Shown here: positions 6,806 to 20,920 of the stretch, piece after piece
Layout: the number at the start of each line of letters is the position of its first letter
Numbering within the stretch: position 1 is the stretch's first letter
Source: a virus
Length of the DNA: 20,920 bases
Reading direction: 5' to 3' (one strand)
IMG/VR virus record: IMGVR_UViG_3300028025_005669
Span: 1-20,920 of that record
Program-made: the position numbers and the translations under genes
The notes under the pieces: model-generated
What the model saw: only the letters and a program-made list of their open reading frames with translations
Databases searched by the model: none
Told to the model about the DNA's origin: nothing

Positions 6806-7483
6806 ATGATAGTATATGTAACAAAAAATTTAGTAAACGGCAAAAAGTACATAGGAAAAGATTCACATAATGATCCTAATTATTTAGGTAGTGGTGCTTT
6901 ACTTTTAGAAGATATTAAAACATACGGTAAAGAAAACTTTAAAAAAGAAATATTAGAACATTGTACTAAAGAAAATTTAGGCGAACGTGAAGAATATTGG
7001 ATAGACTACTTTGATGCTGTTAAATCAAAAAATTTCTATAACATACGAAGTCAAACATCTGGTTGGTATAATAAAGATTTAAACTTAGAAAAATATGAAT
7101 ATGTTGTTAATAAGATAAGAAACAACACAAAAGGTATTCTTAAACCATCACTTCACAACAATCAAGAACGCTCAGAAAAATTAAGACAAGCCAATACAGG
7201 CAAACCAAAACCAGAAGGATTTGGTGAAATTATACGCCAAAAAGCAATAGGTCGTATATGTACCGACGAACATAAGAAAAAAATTAGTAATAGTAAAGTA
7301 GGCAAACCTCATCCTAAAAGTGGTAAACGTATATTACAATTAGATAAAGAAGGTAATGTAATACAGGAACACAATAGTATTGAAGAAGCCGCAAACTATA
7401 TTGGTAAAAAACGCTCTAATATAAGTTGTTGTCTAATTGGTATATCTAAAACAGCTTATGGATTTCAATGGAAATATATTTAA
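6806..7483 (+). CDS. GIY-YIG homing endonuclease with NUMOD domains
   Basis: This 225-residue free-standing endonuclease is inserted between the sheath and tube genes. The GIY-YIG nuclease core is at the N-terminus: VYV at 3-5 stands in for GIY, and YIG is at 15-17. The segments YLGSGALLLEDIKTYGKENF and GEREEYWIDYFDA follow, where the family has its catalytic and structural residues. Two NUMOD3-type DNA-binding repeats follow, TGKPKPEGF near 131 and SKVGKPHPKSGKR near 163. The C-terminal 50 residues, from ILQLDKEGNVIQEH to the Tyr/Gly/Phe/Trp end, form a NUMOD1 helix-turn-helix. It has a strong Shine-Dalgarno sequence, unlike its neighbours, which suggests arrival as a mobile cassette. It probably cuts endonuclease-free relatives near the 18-19 junction. 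No intron signs are visible; both flanking genes are intact. Confidence 0.95.
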   Translation: MIVYVTKNLVNGKKYIGKDSHNDPNYLGSGALLLEDIKTYGKENFKKEILEHCTKENLGEREEYWIDYFDAVKSKNFYNIRSQTSGWYNKDLNLEKYEYVVNKIRNNTKGILKPSLHNNQERSEKLRQANTGKPKPEGFGEIIRQKAIGRICTDEHKKKISNSKVGKPHPKSGKRILQLDKEGNVIQEHNSIEEAANYIGKKRSNISCCLIGISKTAYGFQWKYI

Positions 7484-14583: not shown

Positions 14584-17505
14584 ATGTCAATATTTAAAGA
14601 AACGTTTAAAGACGGAGTTAAAAATCAAATAACAGCTAGGCAAGAAGCAATACTAAATCGTACTCCTTCTTCAATTCAATATTTTAATTCAAGAAACGCT
14701 TGGATTAGAATGACATCAGCTGTAGATGTTGGGGGTGATAAGGGTAAATTAGCTAAAGAATACACTCTATTAGGAGGTACATTAACTAATCTAGGCAAAT
14801 TTGGCTATACTTTAAAATCAGGAATAGGTAAAACCCAAAGCCAAGCCTATAGTACAGTAACACCAGGGGGAACAACAAACAGATTAGGTATACGTCCTAT
14901 GCCTGGTATAGTGTCAATTGATGTTAAATCCAAAGCAGCATATGGTTCATTAAGAGAAGTAACAGTAAATTTTCAATGCTGGGATATTAGACAATTAGAA
15001 GAACTAGAACTTCTATATATGCGCCCAGGCTACTCAGTACTAATAGAATGGGGTTGGGCTCCATATTTAAACAATGATAAAACATTAGGAACTAATATAC
15101 AATTTGTAGATGATGTTTTAAATGGAGGTAAATCTAAAGAAGAAATTTGGAAAACTATATTTACTAAAGCATCAACTGATGGTAATTATGAAGCTATATA
15201 TGGTTTTATAAAAAATTATAGTTGGAAAGCTAGACCTGATGGTGGATATGACTGTACTACTAATATAATAACAATGGGGGAAATAATTGAATCCCTTAAA
15301 GTTAACTATGGTGCTTTTGACTCTAAAAACTTAACCGAAAAAGGATTATTTGGTGGTGTTAAACAACAAAGTTCACTTCCCTCCAGTTTCCAGGCAACAT
15401 ATATTACAGCTCCTGGAGGAATTATTCCCGTCCCTGTTATGCCAGATGCTGTTGTAGATAGTGTTTCTTCGGCATATTCACAAAACATAATTGCAGGTAT
15501 ATGTGCTGAATTATATCAGATAGTAGTTGATAATACTAAAGCTGCTTCTGAAAGATATAGACTTGTTGATAAAGAAACAAAGTATACATATGAATTATTA
15601 AGAAACGATATAGCAGTTAGTGGAAATCAACAATCATCAATAACAAATAACGGTATTACTCAAGTATATATTCTATTAGAATCCTTTATTGAACTACTCA
15701 ATAAAAAAGTTTTATTAAATGATGGAAAAAATCCAATAGCTGGATTATCAATATATGAATCAGAGGTATATGGTAAGAAAAATCGATTATTGTGTTTAGC
15801 TGATATTCATCAAATATCAACCAATCCAACTGTATGTTTAATTAGAAATAGAAATTATTATGATCCTTTAAAGAGTTTAGGAATTGATAATTTAAATACT
15901 GAGGGTATTAGAAGGTATATGGATCAAATGGGGGGTACTTATTACGATGATGCTACCGGATTTGGTGTTATAGGAAACATATACATGAATTTAGATTATT
16001 TATCTAAATTGGCAACTAATGATACCTTAGCTTCACAAGATAAAAAAGAAAAAAACGATATCGTATTATTTGATTTTATTAAAAGTATGATGTCTGGAGC
16101 TAATACTGCTATAGGTAATGTAGCTAACTTTGATATATTTGTTGATCCTGTAGATTCTATAGCTAGAATTATAGATGTAAATTATGTAGATACAACTAAT
16201 AAAAATGAGGCTTATAAAAATGCATTTACAATAGAAGTACATAACTTAAAATCCACAGTTAGAAACTATAACCTAGAATCCCAAATATTCCCAGATCAAG
16301 TTACTACTATTGCTATAGGAGCCCAAGCCAAAGGAGGTGTTTTAGGATCTAACACCAATACCTTAATTGACTTTAATCAGAATTTAGAAGATAGAATAGT
16401 TCCTAAAAAAGATTCCCCTTTATCATTTCAAAATAAACCTACAGACCTTGTAGCTGAAGCAGAAGAAAGAGCAAAACTACTTCAGGATAATTTTGCTAAT
16501 CTTACTAAATATTTTGTTGAATTATCACCTTCATGGTTTAGTAAAGGAGATTATGATATAGAACAATCATCTAAATATGCTAATTCATTAAAAGATATTA
16601 TTAATTATTATATTAGTATTTTTAAAACAGAAGCAAAAAATAGAGCTATCATTCCCACTAAATTATCTCTTGAAATGGATGGTATTGGAGGAATAATAAT
16701 AGGAAATCTATTTAAAATTCCTGATGATTTATTACCTAGAGGATATAAAGGTGGTGGTGCTGGTCCTAAACAAATAGCTTATTTAGTTACCGGTTTAGGT
16801 CACTCAATTCAAAATAATGATTGGGTTACTAAAGTAGACGCTCAATTTATTATTCTAGATGAACCTAAAGGATTAGACTATAAAACTAATTTAGAAATAG
16901 TTAAAGTTAATAATAGACTAGCATCAGCAGAAACTCCCTTCTACAATAGACAAGGAAATAATTCTATTCCTTTTGATCTAACAAATATAGAAGATTCAGA
17001 TAATTCAGGAATTAATTTTACTTCATTTGTTTACCCCACTACAGGAAAAATAACAAGTGCCTTTGCTGTAAGACCTCCTATACCGGGAGGAGTTAGAGGA
17101 AGTGAATTTCATAGAGCTTTAGATATAGCAAATGTATTAAATACTCCTATCTATAGCATATGTGATGGTGAAGTTGTAAGAGCCGGCTCGGTTCCTGGAT
17201 ATGGGGATCATGCTATTTATATAAAAATGGACAGAAAATATCATAATCAAAATAAAGATTATTATGTTGTTTATGGTCATAATCAAGCACATTATGTAAA
17301 AGTAGGAGATAAAGTATCTACAGGTCAAAAAATAGCAGATATGGGATCACAAGGCGGAGGAAGTACAGGACCACATTTACATCTTCAAATAAGAGAAAGT
17401 GCTTTTGGATTTGATAGTTCAACTACATCATTGATGTTTGGAAAATATTTTCCACAAATCAATGGATCAATAACTGCTTTAGCATTATGGGGAACAAATA
17501 AATAA
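14584..17505 (+). CDS. Baseplate hub protein with C-terminal M23 metallopeptidase
   Basis: The 973-residue protein combines a hub body with a cell-wall-cleaving domain. Residues 1-800 hold virion-type segments (MPGIVSIDVKSKAAYGSLRE and QLEELELLYMRPGYSVLIEWGWAP near 135-160). Residues of about 814-950 are an M23 peptidase. The first zinc motif is H843-RAL-D847 (HRALD), with YGH near 897-899 and the HLH motif at 931-933 (GPHLHLQI). All zinc and catalytic positions are present, so it should be active and cleave peptide crosslinks. T4 divides these jobs between gp27 and gp5, whose lysozyme is a glycosidase. The YPTTGKITSAFAVRPP entry strand is the usual start of an M23 beta-sheet. The gene is coupled closely with its neighbours. 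Confidence 0.88.
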   Translation: MSIFKETFKDGVKNQITARQEAILNRTPSSIQYFNSRNAWIRMTSAVDVGGDKGKLAKEYTLLGGTLTNLGKFGYTLKSGIGKTQSQAYSTVTPGGTTNRLGIRPMPGIVSIDVKSKAAYGSLREVTVNFQCWDIRQLEELELLYMRPGYSVLIEWGWAPYLNNDKTLGTNIQFVDDVLNGGKSKEEIWKTIFTKASTDGNYEAIYGFIKNYSWKARPDGGYDCTTNIITMGEIIESLKVNYGAFDSKNLTEKGLFGGVKQQSSLPSSFQATYITAPGGIIPVPVMPDAVVDSVSSAYSQNIIAGICAELYQIVVDNTKAASERYRLVDKETKYTYELLRNDIAVSGNQQSSITNNGITQVYILLESFIELLNKKVLLNDGKNPIAGLSIYESEVYGKKNRLLCLADIHQISTNPTVCLIRNRNYYDPLKSLGIDNLNTEGIRRYMDQMGGTYYDDATGFGVIGNIYMNLDYLSKLATNDTLASQDKKEKNDIVLFDFIKSMMSGANTAIGNVANFDIFVDPVDSIARIIDVNYVDTTNKNEAYKNAFTIEVHNLKSTVRNYNLESQIFPDQVTTIAIGAQAKGGVLGSNTNTLIDFNQNLEDRIVPKKDSPLSFQNKPTDLVAEAEERAKLLQDNFANLTKYFVELSPSWFSKGDYDIEQSSKYANSLKDIINYYISIFKTEAKNRAIIPTKLSLEMDGIGGIIIGNLFKIPDDLLPRGYKGGGAGPKQIAYLVTGLGHSIQNNDWVTKVDAQFIILDEPKGLDYKTNLEIVKVNNRLASAETPFYNRQGNNSIPFDLTNIEDSDNSGINFTSFVYPTTGKITSAFAVRPPIPGGVRGSEFHRALDIANVLNTPIYSICDGEVVRAGSVPGYGDHAIYIKMDRKYHNQNKDYYVVYGHNQAHYVKVGDKVSTGQKIADMGSQGGGSTGPHLHLQIRESAFGFDSSTTSLMFGKYFPQINGSITALALWGTNK

Positions 17506-18028: not shown

Positions 18029-19330
18029 ATGTTTTACATTATAGAAAGATCCGATCAACTACAACAACTAAAACCGTTTGATGATTGTTTTGTTAGTTTT
18101 ATTCCTAAAAACAATAACTACCATCCATCACTCACATCATTAAGTCTAATCTATATTAGACCACTTGATGGGAAGAAAGGTTATATGTTGTGTTTAGATC
18201 ACAACGAATCATTTAGTTTAAATCAAACTGAGGTAATTGATTGGTTAAACATCAACACAAATAAATTATTCTTACTTGATAAGAAAGAAGCATTACATTG
18301 GGTATATTCATTATCTGATAAGTTGTTCGATATTAGTTTTATCGAACCTATTAATTTAACAGAATTAAATAATAACTGCACTAGCTATTATTATACTAAT
18401 CATACTAATTTATCTAATGTAAACTGTCTAATCCCAATCAGTAAACATTACGAAGAATGTGAAACAATATTTAATGTATCGTTACCCACTATTAAAAAAT
18501 ACACATTAACTAACACACAATTCCAATTTCAAAACTTTAGAACAACAGAGGTGTTCTATCAAATTGAAAAAAATGGCATTAAATTAGATAAAAACTGCTT
18601 TATAAACTACTATAAAGGTAAATTACAATATCCCGAATTTAATTTATCTAAGAGCAGAATATATTCTCAATATAATTTATATAATACCACTTCGCGCCCA
18701 TCTAACACATATAATAGCATCAACTTTGCAGCGCTAAATAAAGACGATGGTGAACGCAATTGCTACAAACCCGAAAACAACACATTCATTGAAATCGATT
18801 TTCAGGGTTACCATCCACGTCTAATCGGTGAGATGATTGGGTTTGAATTTCCTAAAGATCGCAACACATATGAATTGTTAGGTGAATTATTAGGTGTATC
18901 ACAACAAGAAGCCAAGGAATTAACCTTTAAACAATTATATGGTGGTGTTTGGTCTGAATATCAGAACAAACCATTCTTTAAAGAAGTAGCCATGTATATT
19001 GATGATATGTGGGACACGTACCAACATAGTGGACATGTTAAAACTGAAAATAAAATATTTATACGTGACCAACTTGATAAAATAACACCACAAAAACTAT
19101 TCAATTATATAGTTCAAAGTAAAGAAACATCAACTAATGTTGAATTATTAGAACTAGCATTAAACTATTTAAAAGACAAAAAAACCAAAATAGTATTATA
19201 TACCTACGATGCATTTCTGTTTGATTATGCTGAAGAAGACGGAAATATATTACCCGAATTAGTAAAATTATTACAATATCCGGTAAGTATCAAACAAGGA
19301 ACATCATATCACGGTTTAACTAAAATATAA
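18029..19330 (+). CDS. Divergent, compact family-A DNA polymerase-like protein
   Basis: This 433-residue protein resembles DNA polymerase I. FYQIEKNGIKLDKN (about 176-189) matches the start of the polymerase domain. TSRPSNTYNSINFAALN from residue 221 corresponds to TGRLSSxxPNLQNIP. Motif A is EIDFQGYHPR with Asp257. Motif B reads AKELTFKQLYGG, with K296, F300, Y304 and G305 in the K-x3-F-x3-YG spacing of the O-helix. Motif C is YTYDAFLFDY with Asp394. Both metal-binding Asp are kept. Three positions are unusual: the steric-gate Glu (E. coli E710) is His262, the O-helix Arg754 equivalent is Gln, and motif C lacks His-Asp-Glu. Only about 38 residues separate the domain start from the TSRPS motif, so the thumb is nearly absent. 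The N-terminal 170 residues may be a decayed exonuclease. Confidence 0.8.
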   Translation: MFYIIERSDQLQQLKPFDDCFVSFIPKNNNYHPSLTSLSLIYIRPLDGKKGYMLCLDHNESFSLNQTEVIDWLNINTNKLFLLDKKEALHWVYSLSDKLFDISFIEPINLTELNNNCTSYYYTNHTNLSNVNCLIPISKHYEECETIFNVSLPTIKKYTLTNTQFQFQNFRTTEVFYQIEKNGIKLDKNCFINYYKGKLQYPEFNLSKSRIYSQYNLYNTTSRPSNTYNSINFAALNKDDGERNCYKPENNTFIEIDFQGYHPRLIGEMIGFEFPKDRNTYELLGELLGVSQQEAKELTFKQLYGGVWSEYQNKPFFKEVAMYIDDMWDTYQHSGHVKTENKIFIRDQLDKITPQKLFNYIVQSKETSTNVELLELALNYLKDKKTKIVLYTYDAFLFDYAEEDGNILPELVKLLQYPVSIKQGTSYHGLTKI

Positions 19331-19338
19331 ATATTTAT
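19326..19338 (+). promoter_or_regulatory. Palindromic ATAAATATTTAT overlapping a start codon
   Basis: ATAAATATTTAT (19327-19338) is a perfect palindrome that includes the ATATTTAT motif and, on the same strand, TATAAATA (19326-19333), the T4 late-promoter consensus. It runs into the ATG at 19337. If it acts as a promoter, RNA would begin after that ATG, so its role here is unclear. Confidence 0.35.
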
Positions 19339-19753
19339 GACAGACAATATATTTTTCGATTTGAACAAGCTATTCTGTACATTTACTACCCCAGACGAAT
19401 TAGATACGGTTCTTGCCGATATCAATCGCCGATATACAATATTGTATAATAAAATATTCATTCTTGAATCACCTCAAAGCAAAGAATTAATATGTACATA
19501 CAACATTGATATGGGTAATACGGCTGATGCTCCTCTACCTAATACAATATTACTTCACCGCAAGAAGGAATCAAATACATTATATACAATTAATGCTCTC
19601 AATGCATTGATTAGAGAATTAAACAATGGTATGTTAGATACTAGGTTTATTATTAATTGGTCTGATTATAAAAATTGTATATTGCTTAACAACGGTCCTG
19701 AATTGCGCCGTTTAGACACTGCTATTTATAAAATCATAGATCTTAATAAATAA
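19337..19753 (+). CDS. Unknown protein downstream of the polymerase-like gene
   Basis: The protein has 138 residues and no named domain. It appears mixed alpha/beta: LNKLFCTFTTPDELDTVLAD at the start, KIFILESPQSKELICTYNID in the middle, and INALNALIRELNNGMLDTRF, then INWSDYKNCILLNNG, towards the end. It finishes in a basic helix (LRRLDTAIYKIIDLNK). It starts 6 bases after the polymerase-like gene and overlaps the next ATG by 1 base (TAATG). Its soluble, non-repetitive composition differs from the virion proteins, so a replication or regulatory role is as likely as a structural one. Translation may be coupled with the upstream gene. Confidence 0.68.
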   Translation: MTDNIFFDLNKLFCTFTTPDELDTVLADINRRYTILYNKIFILESPQSKELICTYNIDMGNTADAPLPNTILLHRKKESNTLYTINALNALIRELNNGMLDTRFIINWSDYKNCILLNNGPELRRLDTAIYKIIDLNK

Positions 19754-20088
19754 TGGCAACATATACTGCAACACAACTTTATGGTACTGGATCTATTGGT
19801 GAGAATCTATCTGGGTTAAAGACATTTACATTTACTAATCCAGGCGATTCATCATATTTTACTTTGGAAACTATTCCAAATGCAACTGGTTCATATGCTG
19901 GTGCCCCTACTAATGCTTTAGGAACATGGGTTGTGTCTGCATCAATGGGTTTTGTATCATCCTCATATGTTGCTTCGGTTGTAGTACAACCTGGTTCATC
20001 TGCTTTAACCTTTACTCCTACCTCTGCTGTTACTGGTACAACATATCGTTTAAGAGGAACTGGAACTTATAGTTTGACTATTGCTTAA
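19753..20088 (+). CDS. Small beta-rich virion-like protein
   Basis: The protein has 111 residues, rich in Ser, Thr, Gly and Ala. Strands such as LKTFTFTNPGDSSYFTLETI, then GTWVVSASMGFVSSSYVASV and TYRLRGTGTYSLTIA, suggest a single beta-sandwich of the kind used in decoration, tail-fibre or head-tail proteins. The composition is very close to the Ser/Gly/Thr-rich region of the sheath protein at residues 100-205, although I see no clear sequence identity. There is no signal peptide. It starts 1 base inside the preceding stop. A weak stem (AGATCG at 20088-20093, CGGTCT at 20099-20104) sits at its end. Confidence 0.7.
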   Translation: MATYTATQLYGTGSIGENLSGLKTFTFTNPGDSSYFTLETIPNATGSYAGAPTNALGTWVVSASMGFVSSSYVASVVVQPGSSALTFTPTSAVTGTTYRLRGTGTYSLTIA

Positions 20089-20144: not shown

Positions 20145-20920
20145 ATGGATTTAAACATCGCAAAACAGAAGCTTGCTGCTTCACAAAACAAAGGTGGTCA
20201 ACAACGCGAGCGTATTGATTACACCAAAATTTTCTTTAAACCTAAAGCTGGTAAGTACCAAGTACGTATTCTACCAAGCAAATTTGACAAATCATGGCCT
20301 ATCCGTGAAGTACAATTCCATTATGGGTTTGCTAAAGGACCAATTTTGTCATTGACAAACTGGAGTGAAGCCGATCCGATTGCTGACTTTGCAAAACAAC
20401 TTCGCAAATCAGGCGACAAGGAAGATTGGCAATTGGCAAATAAAATCTCTCCTAAATCACGTTTCTTTGCTGCTGTAATCGTACGTGGTGAAGAGCATTT
20501 GGGCGCTCGTTTGTGGGAATTTGGTAAATTGACTCATGATCAACTTCTCGGCATCGCTGCAGATGATGATTATGGTGATTTTACAGACATCACAGATGGT
20601 AGAGACTTCACAATTGAAGCAACTGAAGACGTCATTGCTGGTAGGAAAGGTATTAAGTGTAATCTTCGTATTAAACCTAAAACCACTCCAATCTCAGAAG
20701 ACGGTGCTTTGGTAACTAAATTGCTCGAAGAACAACCAGACATCTTGGGTATTAATCGTAAATACTCTTATGATCAACTTAAGGATGTATTGGCTAAATG
20801 GTTGAATCCTGAAGAAGAACCAGCTGCAACTGAAGCTCCAATCGCATCAAAAGATGAGGACGAAGATGATTTCATTACTGAAATTAACAAACCAGTAACA
20901 CCAGCTTACTCACTCGAAAC
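20145..20920 (+). CDS. 32: Single-stranded DNA-binding protein, gp32-like (3' end beyond window)
   Basis: The frame is open from ATG 20145 to the window edge (258 full codons). The N-terminal helix MDLNIAKQKLAASQNK is followed by the T4 gp32-type core start YTKIFFKPKAGKYQVRILPS, where T4 has a similar 'FxPxxGxxxxRxLP' segment. The core continues with KSRFFAAVIVRGEEHLGARLWEFG and the DYGDFTDITDGRDFTIE region, typical of the OB fold. Near the end is an acidic stretch, KDEDEDDFITEI, as in gp32, which uses its acidic tail to contact replication proteins. The zinc-binding Cys/His set of T4 gp32 is absent; I see a single Cys. T4 gp32 has 301 residues, so some 30-50 residues may be missing. Confidence 0.88.
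   Translation, partial: MDLNIAKQKLAASQNKGGQQRERIDYTKIFFKPKAGKYQVRILPSKFDKSWPIREVQFHYGFAKGPILSLTNWSEADPIADFAKQLRKSGDKEDWQLANKISPKSRFFAAVIVRGEEHLGARLWEFGKLTHDQLLGIAADDDYGDFTDITDGRDFTIEATEDVIAGRKGIKCNLRIKPKTTPISEDGALVTKLLEEQPDILGINRKYSYDQLKDVLAKWLNPEEEPAATEAPIASKDEDEDDFITEINKPVTPAYSLE

Follow-up and report, generated by a model that had tools for sequence, protein, structure and literature searches.

The locus analyzed here raises the question of whether a short gene with family-A polymerase motifs and hardly any thumb encodes the main replicase of its phage in a very trimmed form or an accessory polymerase. The window (i.e., the whole stretch of DNA that was analyzed, 20,920 nt) is the IMG/VR record IMGVR_UViG_3300028025_005669, a 20.9-kb fragment. 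Its source was a T4-like water phage carrying a small second polymerase. A sequence-only reading of the gene had been made earlier, and its interpretation was partly supported by the results given below. The features of the gene and of its downstream neighbors are listed in Table 1.

Table 1. Features of the polymerase gene and its downstream neighbors in the window
Feature	Position	Strand	Basis
divPolA1, thumb-truncated family-A DNA polymerase, 433 aa	18029..19330	+	homology, fold, invariant residues
Vestigial 3'-5' exonuclease-like domain (predicted), aa 1-165	18029..18523	+	fold; exonuclease positions lacking conserved acidic residues
Thumb remnant, aa 181-222, IEKNG helix to R223	18569..18694	+	residue spacing, model helices
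Motif A EIDFQGYHPR, catalytic D257 and steric-gate position H262	18791..18820	+	both 229/229
Motif B / O-helix QQEAKELTFKQLYG, Q292 at the Arg754 site; K296, F300, Y304 and G305 invariant	18902..18943	+	
N359...Q363 (Pol I N845/Q849)	19103..19117	+	N 226/229, Q 229/229
Motif C YTYDAF, catalytic D394	19199..19216	+	Y393, D394 and A395 229/229
138-aa partner protein	19337..19753	+	occurrence only alongside divPolA1
gp32-like ssDNA-binding protein, truncated at the end of the window	20145..20920	+	PF08804 E 9e-10, phrog_1192 E 6e-15

Identity of the Polymerase Gene

Single-sequence searches of Pfam, PHROGs and the PDB sequences with the window protein returned nothing useful, and the open reading frame looked unannotated because these searches failed. 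Pol I was reached from the protein by profile and fold only. No match to PF00476 (DNA_pol_A) was obtained for the window protein, the curated cut-off not being reached. The same family was matched at E ≤ 0.01 by 16 of 69 relatives (best E 7e-13), and its cut-off was exceeded by gp001 of Flavobacterium phage immuto. On the basis of the alignment and the structural model, the open reading frame encodes a family-A polymerase with the Klenow layout.

The relatives were collected by tblastn and by genome scans. Among 50,697 phage records, a match was obtained to immuto gp001 (35.9% identity, 97% coverage, E 9e-71), which is annotated as 'DNA polymerase family A'. The Microcystis phage Mel-JY01 was matched in a protein annotated as hypothetical, and LR756508 (484 kb) in a stretch without annotation. 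The gene was present in six phage records of this collection, and a seventh, very weak match (E 0.8) was not counted. Four IMG/VR scans gave 23, at least 587, 312 and 109 stretches with relatives, in sets that may overlap, and a scan started from the LR756508 member gave no further relatives. The scan of bacterial and archaeal genomes returned two loci only, both in MAG contigs, one of Winogradskyella (L104) and one of Rickettsiaceae (L103). Both were probably binned phage contigs, and the former may give a hint of a Winogradskyella host.

The family was described in 2024 under the name divPolA1 in 14 phages, including immuto (Yutin et al., Virol J 21:200, PMC11348598, section 13). According to that section, divPolA1 has a truncated thumb, an inactivated exonuclease domain and conserved catalytic residues, its genomes also encode a regular polymerase, which belongs to family A, B or C, and replication genes lie downstream. 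The window protein showed homology over its whole length, a palm with motifs A, B and C and both Asp residues, a truncated thumb and replication genes downstream. Its exonuclease domain was present and appeared inactivated, as read from the loss of acidic residues. Moreover, it was homologous to immuto gp001 over the full length (36-37% identity, E 9e-71), with no essential difference between the two. Judged by the description in section 13, the window protein belongs to divPolA1, a published family with immuto gp001 as its type member. The family is already published, and the find is therefore not new as a kind. The published set comprised 14 genomes, and many hundreds of members from metagenomes have now been added to it, with possible overlap between the scans.

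An invariant His gate, a missing O-helix Arg and an obligate 138-aa companion were not found in the text of PMC11348598, the part of the paper that was compared. The terms steric, RecA, UvsX and FEN were absent from this text, and the only 'small protein' mentioned there belongs to a different clade. Relative to the published text, both the fixed His gate and the obligate partner thus appear to be additions.

Predicted Fold and Domain Structure

The model of the window protein, built with AlphaFold2 on the alignment, had a pLDDT of 93.9 and a pTM of 0.91. Foldseek matched it to Klenow-type polymerases with a best E of ~1e-15. The VIA-align comparison gave a Z of 25.5 to Bacillus (Bst) Pol I (4f3o), with 403 aligned residues and an rmsd of 4.4, and the superposition spanned model residues 1-430 and chain residues 300-875. 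The ternary complexes of Bst Pol I gave Z values of ~25. The structural comparison with Pol I that had been recommended thus returned the Klenow fold, and the domain order and fold of the Klenow fragment (Bst, E. coli and Taq) were shared by divPolA1 over model residues 1-431 with Z ~25.

The thumb differed clearly from that of Klenow. From E180 to R223, it measured 43, 41 and 23 residues in the clades of the window, of immuto and of Mel-JY01, respectively, whereas the thumb of E. coli Pol I (E541 to R668, chain numbering) measured 127 residues. Only the short helices 188-195 and 202-205 were present in this region of the model, in line with the near-thumbless enzyme that had been claimed. The motifs A, B and C followed one another in the order of the Klenow alignment, as had also been stated. 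The family-A spacing assigned to them did not hold, however, because A and B were separated by 39 residues and B and C by 98, compared with 53 and 124 in Pol I. The shorter spacings indicate that the fingers were trimmed as well.

Since the model superposed on Pol I from residue 300, residues 1-165 were assigned to the 3'-5' exonuclease-like domain. The invariant columns of this domain were H32, Y42, H58, K85, K86, D101 and P136, and no metal-binding acidic set was found among them in the sequences of the full-length relatives. By this reading of the sequences, the proofreading domain of divPolA1 appears to be vestigial and dead, unlike that of Klenow-type enzymes.

Active Site and Selection

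Conservation was evaluated across a set of 229 full-length sequences that included the window protein, and the most distant of them shared ~23-25% identity with it. The correspondence with the Klenow fragment was taken from the alignment of a 69-sequence profile, which was in register with an E-value of only 0.059. This alignment was accepted because the motif order and the fold confirmed the register. In this alignment, D257, H262, K296, F300, Y304, N359, Q363 and D394 were equivalent to D705, E710, K758, F762, Y766, N845, Q849 and D882, respectively. D257, H262, K296, F300, Y304, G305, K356, Q363, Y393, D394 and A395 were identical in all 229 sequences, and so were E180, R223 and N232. The catalytic Asp pair, the Lys, Phe and Tyr of the fingers and the minor-groove Arg, Asn and Gln were shared with the Klenow fragment. 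The retention of both catalytic Asp residues was confirmed, and loss of D257 or D394 in a close family, which would have spoken for an inactive enzyme, was not seen among the 229 sequences.

Other active-site residues differed from those of Klenow. The steric-gate Glu (E710) was replaced by His, R754 by Gln, Tyr or other residues, and in motif C His881 by Tyr and Glu883 by Ala. Site 292, which corresponds to Arg754 of the O-helix, was occupied by Tyr (148 sequences), Gln (49), Thr (13), Ala (8), Lys (5), Pro (5) and Val (1), and by Arg in none of the 229. The substitutions of Glu by His and of Arg by Gln had been pointed out for the window protein and were both correct. Judged from the conservation set, the His gate and the loss of Arg belong to the whole family and not to one divergent copy, and the odd active-site residues are now known to be fixed family-wide. 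Nucleotide binding may be weak or different in divPolA1 because R754, H881, E883 and E710 were all replaced, and this difference counts against the role proposed below. Purifying selection was strong, as close pairs had dN/dS values of ~0.05-0.18 over the whole gene and of 0.02-0.16 within the polymerase part.

The same residues bear on whether the protein is an enzyme at all. A catalytically weak or inactive palm, serving with the 138-aa protein as a replisome scaffold or regulator, would agree with the missing thumb, the dead exonuclease, the loss of several dNTP-contact residues and the conserved neighbor pair formed with the 138-aa gene. A scaffold would not need the catalytic residues, however, and the Asp pair, K296, F300, Y304, N359 and Q363 were kept in essentially every member down to ~23-25% identity. 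This role is therefore quite improbable.

The replacement of the ribonucleotide-excluding Glu by His could also indicate synthesis of RNA or of mixed RNA-DNA, such as primers or transcripts. H262 occupied the gate in 229 of 229 sequences, and the E883 and H881 sites were changed too. His is still bulky, however, and T7-type single-subunit RNA polymerases have Gly at this position of motif A, where divPolA1 had His throughout. Furthermore, a separate DnaG-like primase (gp091) was encoded in the immuto genome, and the best-ranked fold matches were DNA polymerases. A role in RNA synthesis is hence considered unlikely, although an RNA polymerase role was raised by Yutin et al. for divPolA2 (PMC11348598). 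In the passage on that protein, divPolA2 of barbaviruses and vibriophages (AUR84708) is a small thumbless family-A variant that occurs beside a regular PolB in a variable neighborhood (PMC11348598). The gate Glu was apparently kept in AUR84708 (VYDFKAFE, by eye), whereas divPolA1 has His, and the two had no significant match in one profile search.

Separate Replicase in Relatives

The replicase census was based on the relatives, as the window phage was seen as a 20.9-kb fragment only. Twenty records of relatives had a length of 100 kb or more. In 19 of them, a full-size polymerase of family A, B or C occurred beside divPolA1, and the single record without one was a 119-kb fragment. This replicase was a PolB of ~840-920 aa in the clades of the window and of Mel-JY01 and a PolA of ~780 aa in the immuto clade, and both PolB and PolC were present in LR756508. 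In other words, divPolA1 was kept whichever replicase family was used, which points to a separate job.

The search for a separate replicase that had been suggested thus separated the two options left by the sequence-only reading. The accessory polymerase gained support, and the trimmed main replicase was refuted for the family. Its place at the head of the replication block would suit a main replicase, but its thumb and proofreading were both gone and 19 of the 20 large records had a full-size polymerase, and this option now has next to no likelihood. The use of divPolA1 as a mark of replicase-less genomes was rejected by the same census.

Two family-A enzymes were encoded in the immuto genome. 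The PolA gp199 (777 aa) was canonical by eye, with the exonuclease motif YDTET, the gate Glu (DYTSLE), the O-helix Arg (RNQAK) and an HDQ motif C. Similarity between gp199 and divPolA1 was undetectable in a sensitive profile search.

Gene Neighborhood and Proposed Role

In the window, divPolA1 is preceded by the gene of the baseplate hub and by one for a 161-aa protein. The order of the block was divPolA1, 138-aa protein, gp32-like SSB, RecA/UvsX, 5' nuclease and helicase. In the testable loci of relatives, SSB was encoded downstream of divPolA1 in 158/161, and RecA/UvsX, the 5' nuclease and the helicase in 129/135, 90/115 and 33/33, respectively. The 5' nuclease matched phrog_107 with E-values of 1e-33 to 6e-41. 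divPolA1 heads a conserved replication/recombination block. The gene had been assigned to the tail gene block rather than to a replication block; it does follow the hub gene, but it opens the SSB-RecA-5' nuclease-helicase block. A tail-fibre-like 111-aa protein (19753-20088, + strand, weak phrog_1101) separates the polymerase and partner pair from the SSB in the window, and this insert was found in some relatives only.

The block also bears on a role in lesion bypass. Family-A enzymes with dead exonuclease domains have been discussed as low-fidelity or lesion-bypass enzymes (PMC12926913). The vestigial exonuclease domain, the trimmed fingers and the missing thumb of divPolA1 would fit such a translesion or lesion-tolerant polymerase, with an open, low-fidelity active site that is used when the replicase stalls. 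A damage-response context was absent, however, and nearly all relatives had the gene linked to the core replication block, an unusual setting for an optional bypass enzyme, which makes this role rather doubtful. In order of likelihood after the accessory polymerase, lesion bypass was placed first, followed by RNA synthesis and then the scaffold.

The conserved residues, the predicted fold, the separate replicase of the relatives and the gene block suggest that divPolA1 is probably an accessory DNA polymerase of low processivity, which fills gaps or carries out synthesis linked to recombination. An active polymerase that grips DNA weakly would make short stretches on SSB-coated or recombining DNA. 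After primers or flaps have been cut away by the 5' nuclease, divPolA1 could fill the resulting gaps; alternatively, the enzyme may extend recombination intermediates. Unlike in Pol I, the 5' nuclease is a separate downstream gene in the divPolA1 block, and this neighborhood suggests that the polymerase and the 5' nuclease might amount to a split Pol I, with each part encoded by its own gene of the block. Okazaki fragments of T4 are matured in the absence of an enzyme of this kind, which counts against the split Pol I.

The 138-aa Partner Protein

The gene directly 3' of divPolA1 encodes a 138-aa protein, which formed one family across all three clades. The three clade sets of the partner overlapped by construction, and the cross-clade identity of 43-62% to the window copy agreed with a single family. 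The invariant core was HxKKxxNxxYTINxLNxLIxxLNxG, and relatives were located, for example, at L023:1346-1801 and L027:21224-21613. The partner was present in exactly the same six records of the phage collection as divPolA1. In the IMG/VR scan started from the partner, divPolA1 lay upstream in 79 of 79 testable loci among the best 80 of at least 592; the 80th was too short to tell, and none of the 80 was seen to lack divPolA1. Counted from the divPolA1 side, the partner was found in 144 of 197 loci, an undercount because a length filter dropped most copies of the Mel-JY01 clade. The loci L206, L257 and L273, which were filtered out of this count, do have the partner. The co-occurrence relied on was hence the 79 of 79 from the partner's side. 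In the six phage records and the best 80 of at least 592 IMG/VR loci, the partner was found nowhere outside divPolA1 loci.

The model of the partner had a pLDDT of 87.9. Searches of Pfam gave weak scattered matches only, and those of the PDB sequences gave none. The fold had no confident match, with a best Foldseek E of 0.18 and a best Z of 6.4 over residues 8-73 only. The strict pairing beside a thumbless polymerase suggests that the partner may be a subunit for DNA grip or recruitment, which the thumb provides elsewhere. A more specific proposal is a two-subunit polymerase in which the small protein replaces the thumb as a DNA clamp and the His gate gives unusual sugar selection; this proposal is tentative and rather unlikely. 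The strict partner gene is a concrete lead to how a thumbless polymerase could hold DNA. Moreover, the function has become testable, as it would take two small proteins and the phage immuto, an isolate that grows on Flavobacterium.

Other Genes of the Window and of Immuto

Several other genes were observed in passing. At its C-terminus, the hub protein (14584-17505, + strand) carried an M23 peptidase domain (PF01551, E 1.8e-21). A 225-aa protein (6806-7483, + strand), the gene of which is flanked by those of the tail sheath and the tail tube, was GIY-YIG homing endonuclease-like by eye. In the genome of immuto, a divPolA1 phage, queuosine/7-deazaguanine genes and a DpdA-like transglycosylase were found (L023, 18607-37015), which suggests modified guanines in its DNA.
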